Made by a program: the position numbers and the translations under genes
Notes under the pieces: generated by a model
The model's database searches: none
What the model was told of the DNA's origin: nothing
Seen by the model: the letters and a program-made list of their open reading frames with translations, nothing else
Assembly: GCF_004421105.1 (NCBI RefSeq)
Contig: NZ_CP038033.1
Span: 391,659 to 455,658, forward strand
Direction of reading: 5' to 3'
Length of the DNA: 64,000 nt
Source of the DNA: Nitrosococcus wardiae
GTDB taxonomy: Bacteria > Pseudomonadota > Gammaproteobacteria > Nitrosococcales > Nitrosococcaceae
In this document: piece by piece, positions 27,594 through 59,376 of the stretch
Position numbering within the stretch: position 1 is the stretch's first letter
How the letters are laid out: each line of letters opens with the position of its first letter

Positions 27594-27739
27594 AGGGATT
27601 GGCTTTTCTAGTGGATGTTCAGTTTGAAATCTTATTGTCATTTGCAACTTGGAGTTTCGCCATGACTGACTGCGGCTCGGTCCCTCCTCACCTCGTCAGT
27701 CTGACAAATTCGCGTTTCTCAGCAGTCCTCAGACGGTGG

Positions 27740-28897
27740 CTAGGCCACGGCCCTTGGGGTCTTTACCGCTCCACGCGCTTTATCGGTTCCGGCACTCCCC
27801 GCCGTACCAAAATTCAAAACATTGATAGCCGCGTTGATGTCCCTATCGTGGCGGGTAGTGCAATCAGGGCAAACCCACTCGCGAACTTTGAGCGGCATGG
27901 ACTCGTGAATAGTCCCGCACTCAGAGCACGCTTTGCTAGTCGGTGCCCAGCGGTCCACGATCAACACTTCCCGGCCATACCATTGGGCCTTGTACTCCAT
28001 TTGCCGGCGAAGCTCATACAGACCACAATCCGCAACGGCTTTACTCAGGCGACTATTTCTCAACATCCCTTTGATGTTCAAATCCTCCAGGCAAATCACT
28101 GGGTTCTCGTTAATCAGCTTCGAGGATTGCTGGTGCAGAAAATCCCGGCGGCTATCCGCTATCCGGGCATGGATACGCGCCACGCGTTGCTGTTGTTTTC
28201 GGCGACGATTGGACCCTTTCTTCTTTTTGCTCAATCGACGCTGCGCCATCCTCAATTGACGGGCAGAGTGATAGGTGTACTTAGGTGCGCCCGATTTATA
28301 CCCCTCGGAAGTGATGACCACCTCCTTAATCCCCACATCCACGCCAACGGCGTTCTTGCGGGTAGGCAGCGCGGCAATCTCCACCTCGCAGGCCATGCTG
28401 GCGAAATAACGGCCAGCCGGGTCTTTACTGACCGTCACCATTTTGGGGATGCCGCCTATACGCCGGGACCATTTCAGCTTCAGCGCACCAAGTTTGGGCA
28501 GTTTCAACCGCTGGCTTTTGGCGTTGAAATTCTTTTCTACATGGCGTTGGTCCAACTGATAGCGCACCGACTGAGCTTGGTGGCGCGTCTTAAAGCGGGG
28601 ATACTTGGTCCGACCGGCAAAGAAATGCTTAAACGCCGTGTCCTGGTCCCTCAATTTCTGGATATGGCAACCGGCAGTCGCTTCGCTCAGCCACGAACAC
28701 TCCGTCTTTTTAAGTTCCGTCAATTGGCGACTGAGGTTGAGGTTATTCAGCGACTCGCCATGCTCTTTATACGCCTTCGTTCGGGTCTCCAACGCCCAAT
28801 TCCATACAAAGCGGGTATGACCAAATTCAATCGTCAATTGCCGCTTTTGCGTGGGCGTAGGATAAAACCTGAATTTATAGGCGCGTTGTGTTACCAT
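27740..28897 (-). CDS. tnpB: TnpB RNA-guided nuclease (OrfB), copy 1
   Basis: 385-residue TnpB of the IS200/IS605 superfamily; such proteins cut DNA next to a short adjacent motif, using a guide RNA made from the element's own 3' end. The RuvC-like active site is complete: Asp187 (GVDVGIKE), Glu271 (LEDLN), Asp353 (HDRDINAAIN). The zinc finger has Cys324, Cys327, Cys343 and Cys346. The start is the ATG at 28897 (MVTQRAYKFRFYPT, the standard family N-terminus); the longer frame to 29122 crosses the divergent small gene. All catalytic residues are present, so the protein is likely active. Confidence 0.93.
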   Translation of the reverse strand: MVTQRAYKFRFYPTPTQKRQLTIEFGHTRFVWNWALETRTKAYKEHGESLNNLNLSRQLTELKKTECSWLSEATAGCHIQKLRDQDTAFKHFFAGRTKYPRFKTRHQAQSVRYQLDQRHVEKNFNAKSQRLKLPKLGALKLKWSRRIGGIPKMVTVSKDPAGRYFASMACEVEIAALPTRKNAVGVDVGIKEVVITSEGYKSGAPKYTYHSARQLRMAQRRLSKKKKGSNRRRKQQQRVARIHARIADSRRDFLHQQSSKLINENPVICLEDLNIKGMLRNSRLSKAVADCGLYELRRQMEYKAQWYGREVLIVDRWAPTSKACSECGTIHESMPLKVREWVCPDCTTRHDRDINAAINVLNFGTAGSAGTDKARGAVKTPRAVA

Positions 28898-28915
28898 AAC
28901 TGCATAGTAACACAA
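28886..28915. promoter_or_regulatory. 9-bp inverted repeat over the tnpB start, copy 1
   Basis: TTGTGTTAC (28886-28894) and GTAACACAA (28907-28915) form a perfect 9-bp inverted repeat with a 12-bp spacer that contains the tnpB start codon (28895-28897). The repeat ends 16 bp before the divergent ribbon-helix-helix gene. It may be the operator for that protein, controlling both genes, or in RNA it may form a hairpin that hides the tnpB start codon. The same repeat is in copy 2. Confidence 0.6.
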
Positions 28916-28931
28916 ACCACGCGAGGCGACA

Positions 28932-29084
28932 ATGGCGAAAGAAACCGTCAATATGAGAATCGACCCAGAACTAAGGGCCAAGTTAGTAGAAATGGCAAAG
29001 CAACAGAATCGGCCCCTATCCAATCTAATAGAGACGCTTCTTTGGGAAGCCGTGAAACGCGAATTCATGGCGAAACGCAAGTAA
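28932..29084 (+). CDS. Ribbon-helix-helix small protein in TnpB element, copy 1
   Basis: A 50-residue basic protein. The pattern VNMRIDPELRAKLVEMAKQQ, then NRPLSNLIETLLWEAVKREF, is that of a CopG/Arc-type ribbon-helix-helix DNA-binding domain: a beta strand followed by two helices with a turn at NRPLS. ATG at 28932 has GAGG five bases upstream. It is divergent from tnpB with 34 bp between start codons, the spacer being filled by an inverted repeat. An exact copy is in element copy 2 (59120-59272). The likely role is a repressor of the element; this is inference, no toxin partner is visible. Confidence 0.72.
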   Translation: MAKETVNMRIDPELRAKLVEMAKQQNRPLSNLIETLLWEAVKREFMAKRK

Positions 29085-29109
29085 TACAGCCCTCGCGCTC
29101 GATGCGCCG

Positions 29110-29364
29110 CTACGCTTCGCACCCTCGCTGGGAGGTCGTCGCACTTCCTTGTGCTCCTTCAAAGCACAATATTACGAAACAGCATAAAGCAATCAAAGCC
29201 AACCCTGTAGCAATTTCTCGATTAAGGAGCCTACTTTGGAGTTCATAAGTTGCGGCCAAGGTAAGCGACCCTAAAACCAGACTCAAATAGCCAACCCAAA
29301 GAACTACTGGAGAAAATCCCGGCCGCTGCCCCTCCACGCCTATTGATCGCCACGCCGAAATCAC
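29110..29364 (-). pseudogene. Small membrane protein, 3' end replaced by TnpB element
   Basis: A GTG start at 29364 directly follows the rsmI stop (TAAGTG) and has a strong AGGAGG site, so it is translationally coupled to rsmI. The protein has two hydrophobic segments (VVLWVGYLSLVLGSLTLAA and GLALIALCCFVILCF). The native sequence ends at the element border (29164); the last 18 or so residues are encoded by the element, so the original C-terminus is probably lost. Family not recognised. Confidence 0.55.
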
Positions 29365-55120: not shown

Positions 55121-55299
55121 TCTTTACCATCACCCAGGGCTAGGCAAGCAAGAACAGCATCGGGAAAAATATTGCATGGCTTACCCGCCGACTTGGAAGA
55201 AAAATTAATTCTATTAAAATAGAAAGCACTTAATCTCTCCGAGATGAGCATTATAAAACCCTATTGATTTCCAACCTAAAACTGTCAAACACCAGGACA

Positions 55300-55761
55300 A
55301 TGCTGACATCATCTAACGAAGAGTCCCTCCATCTGCATGAGAATGAATTCAAGAATATCCTTGCCGCCCATCAACAGTGGCTACGATCAGAGGGAAAAGA
55401 AGGTCAACAAGCCCACCTTGATGGGGTTATCCTTCGGGGGGCTAATCTGAAAGGCGTTAATCTCCAGCGAGCCAATCTTACCTTGGCCTGCCTAGAGGGG
55501 GCCAACCTAGAAAATGCTGACCTTCAAGGATGCACCCTCATTCTTGCCAGCCTAAAAGAAGCGAACCTGACCAATGCTAGGCTTCGGGGAGCGGATCTCA
55601 ACAGTTGTAAATTACAGGCGGCTGATCTTCAGGGCGCCGATCTATCCGCTGCCAACCTAGAATGGACCGACTTATCCTATGCGAACCTTTATCAGACCAA
55701 CCTCCGCGGTGCCAACCTAGACAATGCTAATCTCAATAACGCCCTTGGAGTTTCGCCATGA
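55300..55761 (+). pseudogene. Pentapeptide-repeat protein, 3' end cut by TnpB element copy 2
   Basis: From the ATG at 55300 (MLTSSNEESLHLH) a helical N-terminus is followed by about 20 A(N/D)LxX pentapeptide repeats (GANLKGVNLQRANLTLACLEG and on), which form a right-handed beta-helix. The native sequence ends at 55743; the last residues (LGVSP) and the stop come from the element. The protein may still fold, but its natural C-terminus is lost. Role unknown. A TTG at 55264 is an alternative start. Confidence 0.7.
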
Positions 55762-55835
55762 CTGACTGCGGTTCGGTCCCTCCTCACCTTGTCAGCCTGG
55801 AGAATTCGCGTTTCCTCGCGGTCCTTGGGCGGTGG

Positions 55836-56054
55836 CTAGGCCACGGCCCGTGGGGTCTTTACCGCTCCACGCGCTTTATCGGTTCCGGCGCTCCCCGCCG
55901 TACCCAACATCAAAACATTGATGGCTGCATTGATATCCCTATCGTGTTCCGTTCCACAGTCCGGGCATTCCCACTCACGGATTTTGAGCGGCATGGACTC
56001 TTGAATAGTCCCGCACTCAGAGCACGTTTTACTGGTGGGCGCCCATCGGTCCAC
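55836..56054 (-). CDS. tnpB: TnpB copy 2, exon 2 (zinc finger and last catalytic Asp)
   Basis: 72 codons plus stop, beginning VDRWAPTSKTCSECG. It holds both CxxC pairs of the zinc finger and the third catalytic Asp (HDRDINAAIN). Joined to exon 1 it restores a 385-residue TnpB. It differs from the matching part of copy 1 at roughly two dozen of 219 bases by eye (for example CPDCGTEHDRD in place of CPDCTTRHDRD), unlike exon 1, which is nearly identical. Confidence 0.85.
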   Translation of the reverse strand: MDRWAPTSKTCSECGTIQESMPLKIREWECPDCGTEHDRDINAAINVLMLGTAGSAGTDKARGAVKTPRAVA

Positions 56055-56105
56055 ATAGGGTAGGGGGGCTCGCATCCGCGTGGGAATACGGCTCCCCCTC
56101 CCTCC

Positions 56106-56140
56106 GAACCGGACGTGATAGTTTCCCATCATCCGGCTCT
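56106..56140 (-). ncRNA. Group II intron domain V
   Basis: On the minus strand AGAGCCGGATGATGGGAAAC, then TATCACGTCCGGTTC, folds into the domain V hairpin: AGAGCCGGA-type lower stem, bulge, and a GAAA tetraloop. This is the catalytic core of the ribozyme and looks unmutated. It is followed by a GC-rich stem that would be domain VI with the branch site. Confidence 0.85.
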
Positions 56141-56169
56141 CCGAACCTGCGTGTTCCGTGTTGTCCGCT

Positions 56170-57544
56170 GGCTTTGGGCGTGTGTCTGTGCAGGGCAAGT
56201 GTGGCAGAGCACGATGCGTTTCCGCAGTCTGGCCGCCTTTACTTGCTGCCATAGCGGGGTTCCTTGTCGGTCCTTAAGGTGCCGAACGTGGTGGACCTCG
56301 CAGGGCTCGCTGGTGTTACCGCAGCGTTCGCACTGTTGCGCTTTCAGCCGATCAATGACATCAGACCTCGTAGCGGTGAGCTGGAGGGCCCTTGGTGAAG
56401 CGGGGCAACGTCTGTACGTCCTTAATGTTAAAGACTTCCAGTCGCCGCACGGTCCCGTTTACCATTGCTTGGACAACTAATTTTCCCGGTGCGATTCTCA
56501 GTCTATTAGCCTGTTTTTGTACGGACGACTTGTGCTTAATCGCCAAGGTCTTGAGTAAGCTGGTGGTCCCTAACAGGAGCAGTTTTCTCAGTTGGTATTT
56601 AACGAGTGGCGCAAGCTTGTAGCCCCCGCATTTCCGCATTGTAGGCCAGTACCATCTCGAAGTCCGAGCTATCGATCAGGTACTTCCGATGCTTCGCTTT
56701 GAGGGTGTCGAGGTTTCCATATCCGCACCTGTCCGCGAACGTAAACAGTCTGTCCTTCGGGACGTTGAGCCGTACCGCATCGGAGGTGATCCGGCTTTTC
56801 ACTCTCTGCCCGTTCAGATTAACCCTGTGTTCCTTGGTGGCGGTGCCGCTGGTGCGGACTTCGTAGCCAAGAAACCGCGTTCCGTTCGTGGCCTTGCTCA
56901 GTGTGCTTTTCTCCGGCGATGCTTCCAGTTTCAACTCCCGGTCAAGGAATGTCTTGATCCGTTGCATTACCTGTTCAGCATCCGCCTTTGCTCCGATGAT
57001 GCCCACCAGAAAGTCATCGGCATACCGCACATAGTTCAGTCGCCGATAATTGGGGTCCAGTGGGTCACCGTAGGGGAGTTCCGAGCGTTGGCGCTGGAGG
57101 GCTTTGACTTCCTCCACACACCGGCGGGCTTCGTCCGGTTTCCCTTCCTCAGCCAGCTTGTCGGCTTTCTTTCTGAGTTGGTACATTTTCTGACGCAGGG
57201 ACACATAGGGCGGATTCTGCCGCCGTCGGGATTCCCAGCGGTCTGGTTTTCCCGTTGGCTTTCGGGATGTGTACCCGTCTGACAGGATTGAAGACAGACG
57301 TCCCGTTTCGCAACTGTGCAATGATCCGTTCCACCGTGCCCAGTGAAAAACCGTGCAGGGTGTCCTGGATGACGCCCCGAGTTGTTGCCCCCGCATTGGA
57401 GGCAACGTTTTCGTAGGCGCGTTCCCATAGCGGCATTTCGCATAGGAGCCGAAACAGTCCGTTAATCCTTTTCCCCTGTGTGGACAGGTTTGGAATGGCA
57501 TTCATTCGCTTTTCTAGAGTCATGGATAGCATCAGCACGTCCAC
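56170..57544 (-). pseudogene. Degenerate group II intron reverse transcriptase/maturase (IEP)
   Basis: Pieces in three or more frames. 57544 to about 57224: N-terminus and RT0/RT1 (KANGKTRPLGIPT). The next piece resumes at RRQNPPYVSLRQKMYQLRKK, which normally lies after RT4, so RT2-RT4 (probably 400-500 bp) are deleted with a frame change. RT5 with YADD (RLNYVRYADDFLVGI), RT6 and RT7 follow. A second break near 56625 (NAEMRGL / YKLAPLVKYQ) starts the maturase X domain. A third near 56360 begins an HNH domain (CERCGN, CEVHHVRHLKDRQGTPLW), which itself shifts frame near CHTC. No functional protein is expected. Confidence 0.85.
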
Positions 57545-58146
57545 TCCGTTAGTGATTGAATACCGCAGGTTCTGTCACCCTTCACCCGGTTATCGAAGAT
57601 TCCCCGTTCCGTTGCCGGTTCGGTTTCACCCGTCCCCGTCAGCCTTATGGCTGCTGTCCTGGATATTACTCCAGGCGTTTGGCTACTAGGGTGACTCTGT
57701 CGCCATTCGGATTGAGCCAGGCTCATCCGGGCAGGCGATCCCGTGTTTACGCCATTTAGGAGATACGATGAGGTGAGATGCTCCGTTCGTTCCTTTAATC
57801 CTCCCGACGGGAGGCAGGCCGCGTTGGCTGGGCCGGGAAGGTCTGATCGCACCCTTCCCTTCAGCCGCGGTGCAACGCGCCAGACACTGCTACGTTGCCA
57901 CCGAGGATAAAGCCCTGAGAACTGGAGTTCAGGCAGTGTAGCTTTCACCATACTCATCTTGCACTGACCCTCTTAACTTACAGTGACTTCAGTTATTTGG
58001 GCCTTTTCCCGGCATGCTATGGTCCCGTTCCCCTTTCGGGGTTTCAGGGAGGGGTTGCCTCCCACCGGTAAGCCTGGTGTGCAGGGATTTTCCCAGCTAT
58101 CCTAATGCATTGGCATCGCTCCTTAAATTGCGCCACCACGGCGCAC

Positions 58147-59085
58147 GATCAACACTTCCCGGCCATACCATTGGGCCTTGTACTCCATTTGCCGGCGAAG
58201 CTCATACAGACCACAATCCGCAACGGCTTTACTCAGGCGACTATTTCTCAACATCCCTTTGATATTCAAATCCTCCAGGCAAATCACTGGGTTCTCGTTA
58301 ATCAACTTCGAGGATTGCTGGTGCAGAAAATCCCGGCGGCTATCCGCTATCCGGGCATGGATACGCGCCACGCGTTGCTGTTGTTTTCGGCGACGATTGG
58401 ACCCTTTCTTCTTTTTGCTCAATCGACGCTGCGCCATCCTCAATTGACGGGCAGAGTGATAGGTGTACTTAGGTGCGCCCGATTTATACCCCTCGGAAGT
58501 GATGACCACCTCCTTAATCCCCACATCCACGCCAACGGCGTTCTTGCGGGTAGGCAGCGCGGCAATCTCCACCTCGCAGGCCATGCTGGCGAAATAACGG
58601 CCAGCCGGGTCTTTACTGACCGTCACCATTTTGGGGATGCCGCCTATACGCCGGGACCATTTCAGCTTCAGCGCACCAAGTTTGGGCAGTTTCAACCGCT
58701 GGCTTTTGGCGTTGAAATTCTTTTCTACATGGCGTTGGTCCAACTGATAGCGCACCGACTGAGCTTGGTGGCGCGTCTTAAAGCGGGGATACTTGGTCCG
58801 ACCGGCAAAGAAATGCTTAAACGCCGTGTCCTGGTCCCTCAATTTCTGGATATGGCAACCGGCAGTCGCTTCGCTCAGCCACGAACACTCCGTCTTTTTA
58901 AGTTCCGTCAATTGGCGACTGAGGTTGAGGTTATTCAGCGACTCGCCATGCTCTTTATACGCCTTCGTTCGGGTCTCCAACGCCCAATTCCATACAAAGC
59001 GGGTATGACCAAATTCAATCGTCAATTGCCGCTTTTGCGTGGGCGTAGGATAAAACCTGAATTTATAGGCGCGTTGTGTTACCAT
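58147..59085 (-). CDS. tnpB: TnpB copy 2, exon 1
   Basis: 313 codons from the ATG at 59085 (MVTQRAYKFRFYPT) to isoleucine 313, with catalytic Asp187 and Glu271. If the intron is not spliced, translation runs on for seven residues (VRRGGAI) and stops, giving a protein without the zinc finger and without the third catalytic Asp. Only two base differences from copy 1 are seen over this stretch, both silent in tnpB or conservative. Confidence 0.88.
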
Positions 59086-59103
59086 AACTGCATAGTAACA
59101 CAA
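59074..59103. promoter_or_regulatory. 9-bp inverted repeat over the tnpB start, copy 2
   Basis: Same TTGTGTTAC / GTAACACAA pair with a 12-bp spacer as in copy 1, at 59074-59082 and 59095-59103, flanking the tnpB start codon at 59083-59085. Confidence 0.6.
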
Positions 59104-59119
59104 ACCACGCGAGGCGACA

Positions 59120-59272
59120 ATGGCGAAAGAAACCGTCAATATGAGAATCGACCCAGAACTAAGGGCCAAGTTAGTAGAAATGGCAAAGCAACAGAATCGG
59201 CCCCTATCCAATCTAATAGAGACGCTTCTTTGGGAAGCCGTGAAACGCGAATTCATGGCGAAACGCAAGTAA
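59120..59272 (+). CDS. Ribbon-helix-helix small protein in TnpB element, copy 2
   Basis: Identical 50-residue protein to the one at 28932-29084, divergent from tnpB copy 2. Presence of the intact gene in both copies with no base change suggests that it is maintained or that the copies are recent. Confidence 0.72.
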   Translation: MAKETVNMRIDPELRAKLVEMAKQQNRPLSNLIETLLWEAVKREFMAKRK

Positions 59273-59348
59273 TACAGCCCTCGCGCTCGATGCGCCGCTA
59301 CGCTTCGCACCCTCGCTGGGAGGTCGTCGCACTTCCTTGTGCTCCTTC

Positions 59349-59376
59349 AAAGAACCCCGCTGAGGCGGGGTTCTTT
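59349..59376. terminator. Bidirectional intrinsic terminator
   Basis: AAAGAACCCCGC (59349-59360), loop TGAG, GCGGGGTTCTTT (59365-59376): a perfect 12-bp stem with A-rich and T-rich edges on both sides, followed by GTTT. It lies just beyond the element border and probably ended the pentapeptide-repeat transcript before the insertion. It now also ends transcripts of the porin-like gene from the other side. Confidence 0.85.

Follow-up and report, generated by a model that had tools for sequence, protein, structure and literature searches.

A group II intron with a broken protein gene and a conserved ribozyme interrupts tnpB in a Nitrosococcus wardiae genome that holds no related maturase

Can a bacterial group II intron outlive its own maturase when no other gene in the genome supplies one? 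The question is raised by an intron that interrupts tnpB, the RNA-guided nuclease gene of an IS200/IS605-type insertion sequence (IS), in the ammonia-oxidizing bacterium Nitrosococcus wardiae. It lies on the minus strand of the window, the whole 64,000-nt stretch of DNA that we analyzed (NZ_CP038033.1, positions 391,659 to 455,658); positions are those of the window unless prefixed C1, for the contig. The original prediction, which covered 56170-57544 and did not name the host gene, held that the intron had lost its own protein and could splice with a maturase made elsewhere in the genome. We find a broken protein gene, a conserved ribozyme, an exact empty site and no related maturase in a single-contig genome. 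With the ribozyme whole, the breakage fresh, an intron-free twin 28 kb away and no supplier, the case bears on whether such an intron can outlive its maturase. It is probably an immobile intron that was inactivated recently and stayed behind in a redundant mobile-element gene, where it splices poorly if at all. Inactivated introns are common within insertion sequences, and this case is unusually well defined.

The intron and its host gene

The intron limits come from comparison with the intron-free copy of the host element at 27648-29164, which places the end of exon 1 at 58147 (...GTTGATC) and the start of exon 2 at 56054 (GTGGACC...). The resulting intron is larger than the span first quoted. 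Its boundaries are ambiguous only by a 3-nt GTG repeat, and this is settled by the group II end rule (5' GUGYG, 3' AY), as the intron then begins with GTGCG and ends with AT. Its first position also aligns with the first position of an intron on a plasmid of Sphingobium sp. YBL2 (NZ_CP010956.1, locus L027:2134-4702; hereafter the YBL2 intron), the closest relative found, and the two align end to end. The following features are referred to below, with EBS1 and IBS1 denoting the first exon- and intron-binding sites:

55744 to 59352, minus strand: IS200/IS605-type element with intron-interrupted tnpB; limits from homology to the intron-free copy
58147 to 59310, minus strand: tnpB exon 1, an open frame with TnpB homology from about 59085 (NCBIfam NF038281 positions 1-309 of 360); IBS1, TTGATC, at 58147-58152
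56055 to 58146, minus strand: group II intron, 2,092 nt; limits from the intron-free copy and the YBL2 alignment
57567 to 58146, minus strand: ribozyme domains I-III, by alignment with 17 relatives
57843 to 57848, minus strand: EBS1, GATCAG, in a hairpin loop
56106 to 56139, minus strand: domain V, intact, with a GAAA loop
56055 to 56103, minus strand: domain VI by fold, with the predicted bulged branch-point A at 56061
55836 to 56054, minus strand: tnpB exon 2, 72 codons and a stop, with the zinc ribbon (PF07282) and the presumed last RuvC Asp (NF038281 positions 307-358 of 360)
27648 to 29164, minus strand: intron-free element copy (empty site), by homology to 55744-59352; tnpB open reading frame (ORF) at 27740-29122, 460 aa

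The group II family is the sole Rfam family at its gathering score in the region, with RF00029 matching 56055-56141 (minus strand) at 67.3 bits against a gathering score of 40 (cmscan). Domain V has the full stem and GAAA loop that had been predicted and is identical to that of the YBL2 intron. The segment spanning domains V and VI has a folding energy of -51.2 kcal/mol (z -4.62), a value matched by none of 200 shuffles, and domain VI is predicted to carry a single bulged A, the putative branch point, 7 nt from the intron end. EBS1 pairs with IBS1 over 6 of 6 nucleotides (one G-U), a match that only 1.4% of exon-1 hexamers would achieve at this loop. In 10 of 17 relatives the homologous loop also pairs with the end of the exon over at least 6 nt, and two of the other seven have too little exon for the comparison. 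It is the loop position alone that singles out EBS1, since a hexamer count over the whole of domains I-III finds three sites for IBS1 where the mean is 1.45. Among the candidates examined for an EBS2-IBS2 pairing none was convincing. Taken together, domain V, both ends, domain VI, domains I-III and the EBS1-IBS1 pairing identify the feature, at the level of sequence and predicted fold, as a group II intron. No Rfam subfamily is assigned because domains I-IV gave no Rfam match in the region even at E values up to 5.

The combination of an intron with insertion-sequence genes recalls the IStrons (PMC4227781). In IStrons as described there, however, a group I intron forms part of the IS, whereas here a group II intron interrupts tnpB. 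An IStron identity was rejected: the region matches only a group II family at the gathering score, and no group I family appeared among its Rfam matches even at E values up to 5.

The two tnpB halves match NF038281 over positions that join at the intron, so that intron removal would restore the reading frame. Unspliced, the reading stops after 395 codons, the last few of them from the intron, and the product would lack the exon 2-encoded zinc ribbon together with a DRDINAA motif that we take to hold the last RuvC Asp. The intron-free copy, in contrast, is open over 460 aa and carries HTH, OrfB and TNB domains. Across the genome, a TnpB query matched 12 places, fragments and the window copies included.

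Identity between the two element copies changes at the intron site. The intron-bearing copy is identical to the intron-free copy at 1204 of 1206 positions over element columns 1-1206 (99.8%; 58147-59352 versus 27959-29164), but exon 2 and the right end agree at just 267 of 311 (86%; 55744-56054 versus 27648-27958). This contrast across the intron site is strong (Fisher p 3e-29, with sites treated as independent), and the best switch point falls at columns 1201-1214, with the intron after column 1206. Exon 2 of the intron-bearing copy is closest to copies in a genus mate (G002; up to 92.6%), while that of the intron-free copy is closest to another copy in its own genome (L122; 95.8%). L122 and the intron-free copy share an identical stretch around the insertion point, extending 23 nt before it and 145 nt beyond it. 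Gene conversion could possibly have ended at the intron, replacing exon 1 of the intron-bearing copy, or have taken the intron out of the other copy. Members of this tnpB family generally show patchwork identity.

No description of a group II intron inside tnpB was found in the literature, as judged mostly from titles and abstract openings, with subscription papers largely outside the scope. A comparable known arrangement is that of RmInt1, which lies within the transposase gene of ISRm2011-2 in Sinorhizobium meliloti, where the element protein needs splicing (PMC4238363). RmInt1 is described there as an active, efficiently mobile intron for which correct splicing in vivo is reported for less than 1% of exons (PMC4238363). 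It occupies a different IS, and the intron studied here differs further in having a dead protein and tnpB as its host gene.

A protein gene broken by deletions

Our reference for the IEP (intron-encoded protein) gene was the YBL2 intron's own protein, which is intact and 630 aa long. The YBL2 intron is longer (2,569 nt) and occupies another site, on a plasmid and not in tnpB. Its resemblance to the N. wardiae intron amounts to 71% identity over 637 columns of the 5' part and 49% protein identity in the piece spanning reverse transcriptase (RT) motifs 5-7 and the thumb. The YBL2 protein carries AI2M-like HNH and Intron_maturas2 domains and matches LtrA, the protein of the Ll.LtrB intron, almost throughout (25-598 to 25-593, 401 bits). 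We take this LtrA-type lineage to be the one called "mitochondrial-like". Unlike Ll.LtrB, the N. wardiae intron has a destroyed protein, of which tblastn recovered four pieces in three frames (residues are those of the YBL2 protein):

57212 to 57568, minus strand, frame -3: N-terminal piece, residues 1-119 (TIGR04416 positions 5-73)
57213 to 57228, minus strand: junction of a deletion of approximately 425 nt with a frame change (residues approximately 119-253, RT2-RT4), from tblastn and the whole-intron alignment
56620 to 57228, minus strand, frame -1: RT5-RT7/thumb piece with YADD, residues approximately 254-457 (RVT_1 positions 145-205)
56364 to 56621, minus strand, frame -2: maturase (X) piece, residues 461-543
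56132 to 56380, minus strand, frame -3: HNH piece, residues 546-630, with its last Cys/His part disrupted near 56177, from tblastn and the intron alignment

Loss of RT2-RT4 with a frame change near 57224 had been predicted, along with further breaks near 56625, 56360 and in the HNH region, and alignment to this complete relative bears out each of them while sizing the deletion. The whole-intron alignment has gaps of 425 nt at about 57219, 11 nt at about 56621, 17 nt at about 56395 and 7 nt at about 56177, at the HNH end. The first takes out residues from about 119 to 253, including RT2-RT4; what survives, in pieces, includes YADD and most of the HNH domain.

The aligned frames contain no stop in 491 codons. 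Since approximately 3.5% of random substitutions would create a stop, fewer than about 84 substitutions are expected to have accumulated in these 1,473 nt since inactivation (95%, with neutrality assumed). The stop-codon bound was used because the searches returned no relative close enough to date the death of the gene, and, with the stop-free pieces, it suggests that the IEP gene died recently in sequence terms, through deletions. As its sequence reads, the intron has no coding capacity for a functional RT/maturase and therefore cannot move by itself, in agreement with the original prediction. The intact RT-maturase-endonuclease protein that defines a mobile LtrA-like retroelement is lacking.

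The search for a maturase supplier

The genome of N. wardiae D1FHS was sequenced with PacBio and is reported as a single chromosome with no plasmid (PMC4830845). A single contig of 4,022,640 bp makes up the assembly and includes an ammonia monooxygenase subunit gene. Searches of this genome with RVT_1, TIGR04416, RF00029 and the intron DNA found no trans-acting maturase and no full-length relative of the intron protein, and the intron DNA occurs once, with no second copy. We therefore reject a related maturase made elsewhere in the genome, as originally proposed. The setting to which that proposal appealed, in which several related introns coexist, is also absent, because there is a single intron copy and no related maturase in a genome reported as plasmid-free.

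TIGR04416, the profile for group II RT/maturases, has six matches in the genome, none of them (0 of 6) over its cut-off. One pair of matches falls on pieces of the ORF of the intron itself. A second pair lies in long RT ORFs of other kinds, which have open frames of 534 and 558 aa and score 34 and 54 bits where the cut-off is 300. The last pair consists of C-terminal maturase remnants that begin at profile positions 174 and 178 of 353 and so lack the N-terminal half. The remnants carry a GIIM domain, whereas the intact YBL2 protein carries Intron_maturas2, which places them in another maturase family. More widely, none of the six family genomes had a TIGR04416 match over the cut-off or a sister copy with identical lesions, and among 369 class genomes no relative of the protein was found outside its own genome at E <= 1e-15. 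A scan of genome contigs gave a highest identity of 48% among the best 80 of 449 confirmed loci, all of 654 plasmid records fell below 60% identity to the intron protein, and viral contigs contained no relative of it.

Protein-less bacterial introns are said in a 2015 review to persist almost solely where a related intron provides the maturase (PMC4424553). The ORF-less TeI3 introns of Thermosynechococcus elongatus are described in these terms, with related introns giving maturases in trans and 17 ORF-less copies sharing one common deletion (PMC2882425). Like TeI3 as reported there, the N. wardiae intron has a deletion in its protein gene, both ends of which persist as remnants, and a kept ribozyme; it differs in being a single copy without the related intact maturase that an intron served in trans has in its genome. 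What we found instead is the genomic context of a solitary ORF-less intron, the intron's own broken ORF and two other-family remnants being all the group II maturase sequence that is present. The same review names C.te.I1 of Clostridium tetani, with no IEP-related gene in its genome, as the only solitary bacterial case (PMC4424553). The N. wardiae intron resembles C.te.I1, as described there, in having no related intact maturase gene, and differs in that its ORF is freshly wrecked and its splicing is hypothetical.

The searches also returned several other loci. At C1:3610054-3611154 (minus strand; L006:1057-2157), a 366-aa open frame fuses the N-terminal helix-turn-helix domain of TnpB (PF12323) to RT5-7 and GIIM of another group II maturase, which gives this genome a second tnpB/group II junction. 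At C1:3364945-3365755 (plus strand; L007/L002), a 235-aa C-terminal GIIM maturase remnant is followed by a domain V above the gathering score (47 bits). A domain V-like match at C1:1583961-1584032 (plus strand; L003) reaches 39.6 bits against the gathering score of 40, with no RVT_1 or TIGR04416 RT match nearby. The two long RT ORFs, at C1:1160553 (plus strand; L004) and C1:3368665 (minus strand; L005), appear retron-like by eye, with TIR-like and trypsin-like tails, and may belong to defence systems.

Decay in place or splicing without a maturase

We think it probable that tnpB of an IS200/IS605-type element received a mobile group II intron encoding an LtrA-like protein and that several deletions then destroyed the intron's protein gene, recently enough that the surviving pieces have not yet acquired a stop, leaving the intron immobile. 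Without a maturase, splicing in the cell would be inefficient or nil, and the interrupted copy would yield mainly the 395-aa protein, without the zinc ribbon or the last catalytic Asp. Loss of this copy would be tolerated because of the intact tnpB 28 kb away and the further tnpB genes in the genome; the copy being redundant, nothing forces splicing. Should it fail to splice, the intron provides a clear-cut case of a retroelement dying within another mobile element.

Several observations weigh against this reading, in which the absence of splicing is something we infer. Little ribozyme decay is visible: no column has a base uniquely missing or added, and 19 pairs are changed on both sides relative to the YBL2 intron with pairing preserved. 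In exon 1, the two changes in the coding part relative to the intact copy are both synonymous. Exon 2 is stop-free; compared with L118, the nearest relative listed for it, 12 of its codons carry synonymous changes and 3 carry non-synonymous ones. Such clean exons resemble a spliced gene, though the exon 2 changes may predate the insertion.

To place the ribozyme among its relatives, we aligned domains I-III with 17 of 84 loci that have related proteins, namely those whose 5' part was recognizable; counts were made over eight group representatives. The N. wardiae ribozyme keeps 139 of the 154 columns that are invariant in all eight intact groups, and several of the 15 missed columns are coordinated changes (e.g., 74/135, 421/436 and 455/570). 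When sets of seven serve as the reference, it keeps 143-154 of 159-169 columns, versus 154 of 159-169 for the left-out intact relatives. It forms 131-137 of 158-165 pairs (82-84%) in consensus structures built without its sequence, compared with 84-96% for left-out intact relatives and 31-47% for slid controls. The RNA core is thus well kept and looks still able to splice. On both measures, however, it stands at or below the lowest intact relative: it keeps fewer invariant columns than seven of the eight, tying with the eighth, and forms fewer consensus pairs than every left-out relative.

Alternatively, the ribozyme may splice in vivo without a cognate maturase, either unaided or with general RNA chaperones, so that splicing sets the level of TnpB. 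The kept columns and pairs, the full EBS1-IBS1 pairing, the correct ends, the predicted branch-point A and the two clean exons are all consistent with this, and C.te.I1, from a genome without an IEP gene, is reported to self-splice in vitro (PMC4424553). We nevertheless consider it unlikely, given that the review names one solitary bacterial case among more than 1,500 copies (PMC4424553) and that the ribozyme ranks lowest, or ties for lowest, among its intact relatives. Slightly more doubtful again is the fuller proposal that this is a second solitary bacterial group II intron, splicing without a cognate maturase within an RNA-guided nuclease gene, with the retroelement reduced to a brake on one TnpB copy. 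If that were true, splicing would join the last catalytic Asp and the zinc ribbon to the rest of TnpB.

Splicing in trans by the two C-terminal remnants or the two long RT ORFs is improbable. The remnants (C1:3610258-3610773 and C1:3364960-3365454) do keep RT5-7 and GIIM, their open frames being 366 and 235 aa long, but they lack profile positions 1-173 and 1-177 of 353 and belong to the GIIM rather than the Intron_maturas2 family, and the other RT ORFs score far below the maturase cut-off. Less probable still is that the intron arrived already ORF-deleted, mobilized by a maturase since lost, rather than decaying in place. Lesions without stops and the lack of any remaining donor would fit such an arrival. 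In the family and class genomes, however, there is neither a same-lesion sister copy nor a close protein relative, and therefore nothing shows mobilization after the lesions.

That the breaks are sequencing or assembly errors in an intact gene, which would have undone the original prediction, is scarcely credible: long-read assemblies in general can carry indel errors, but gaps of these sizes are unlike homopolymer slips, the PacBio depth is approximately 560-fold (divided out from numbers in PMC4830845), and the adjoining ribozyme and exons are clean.

Two minor observations concern the host element. Its right end sits in the 3' end of what appears by eye to be a pentapeptide-repeat gene (55264-55761, plus strand) and supplies the last codons of that gene. 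Furthermore, a 50-aa ORF (59120-59272, plus strand), ribbon-helix-helix-like by eye and divergent from tnpB, is present in both element copies, within the region that is 99.8% identical between them.
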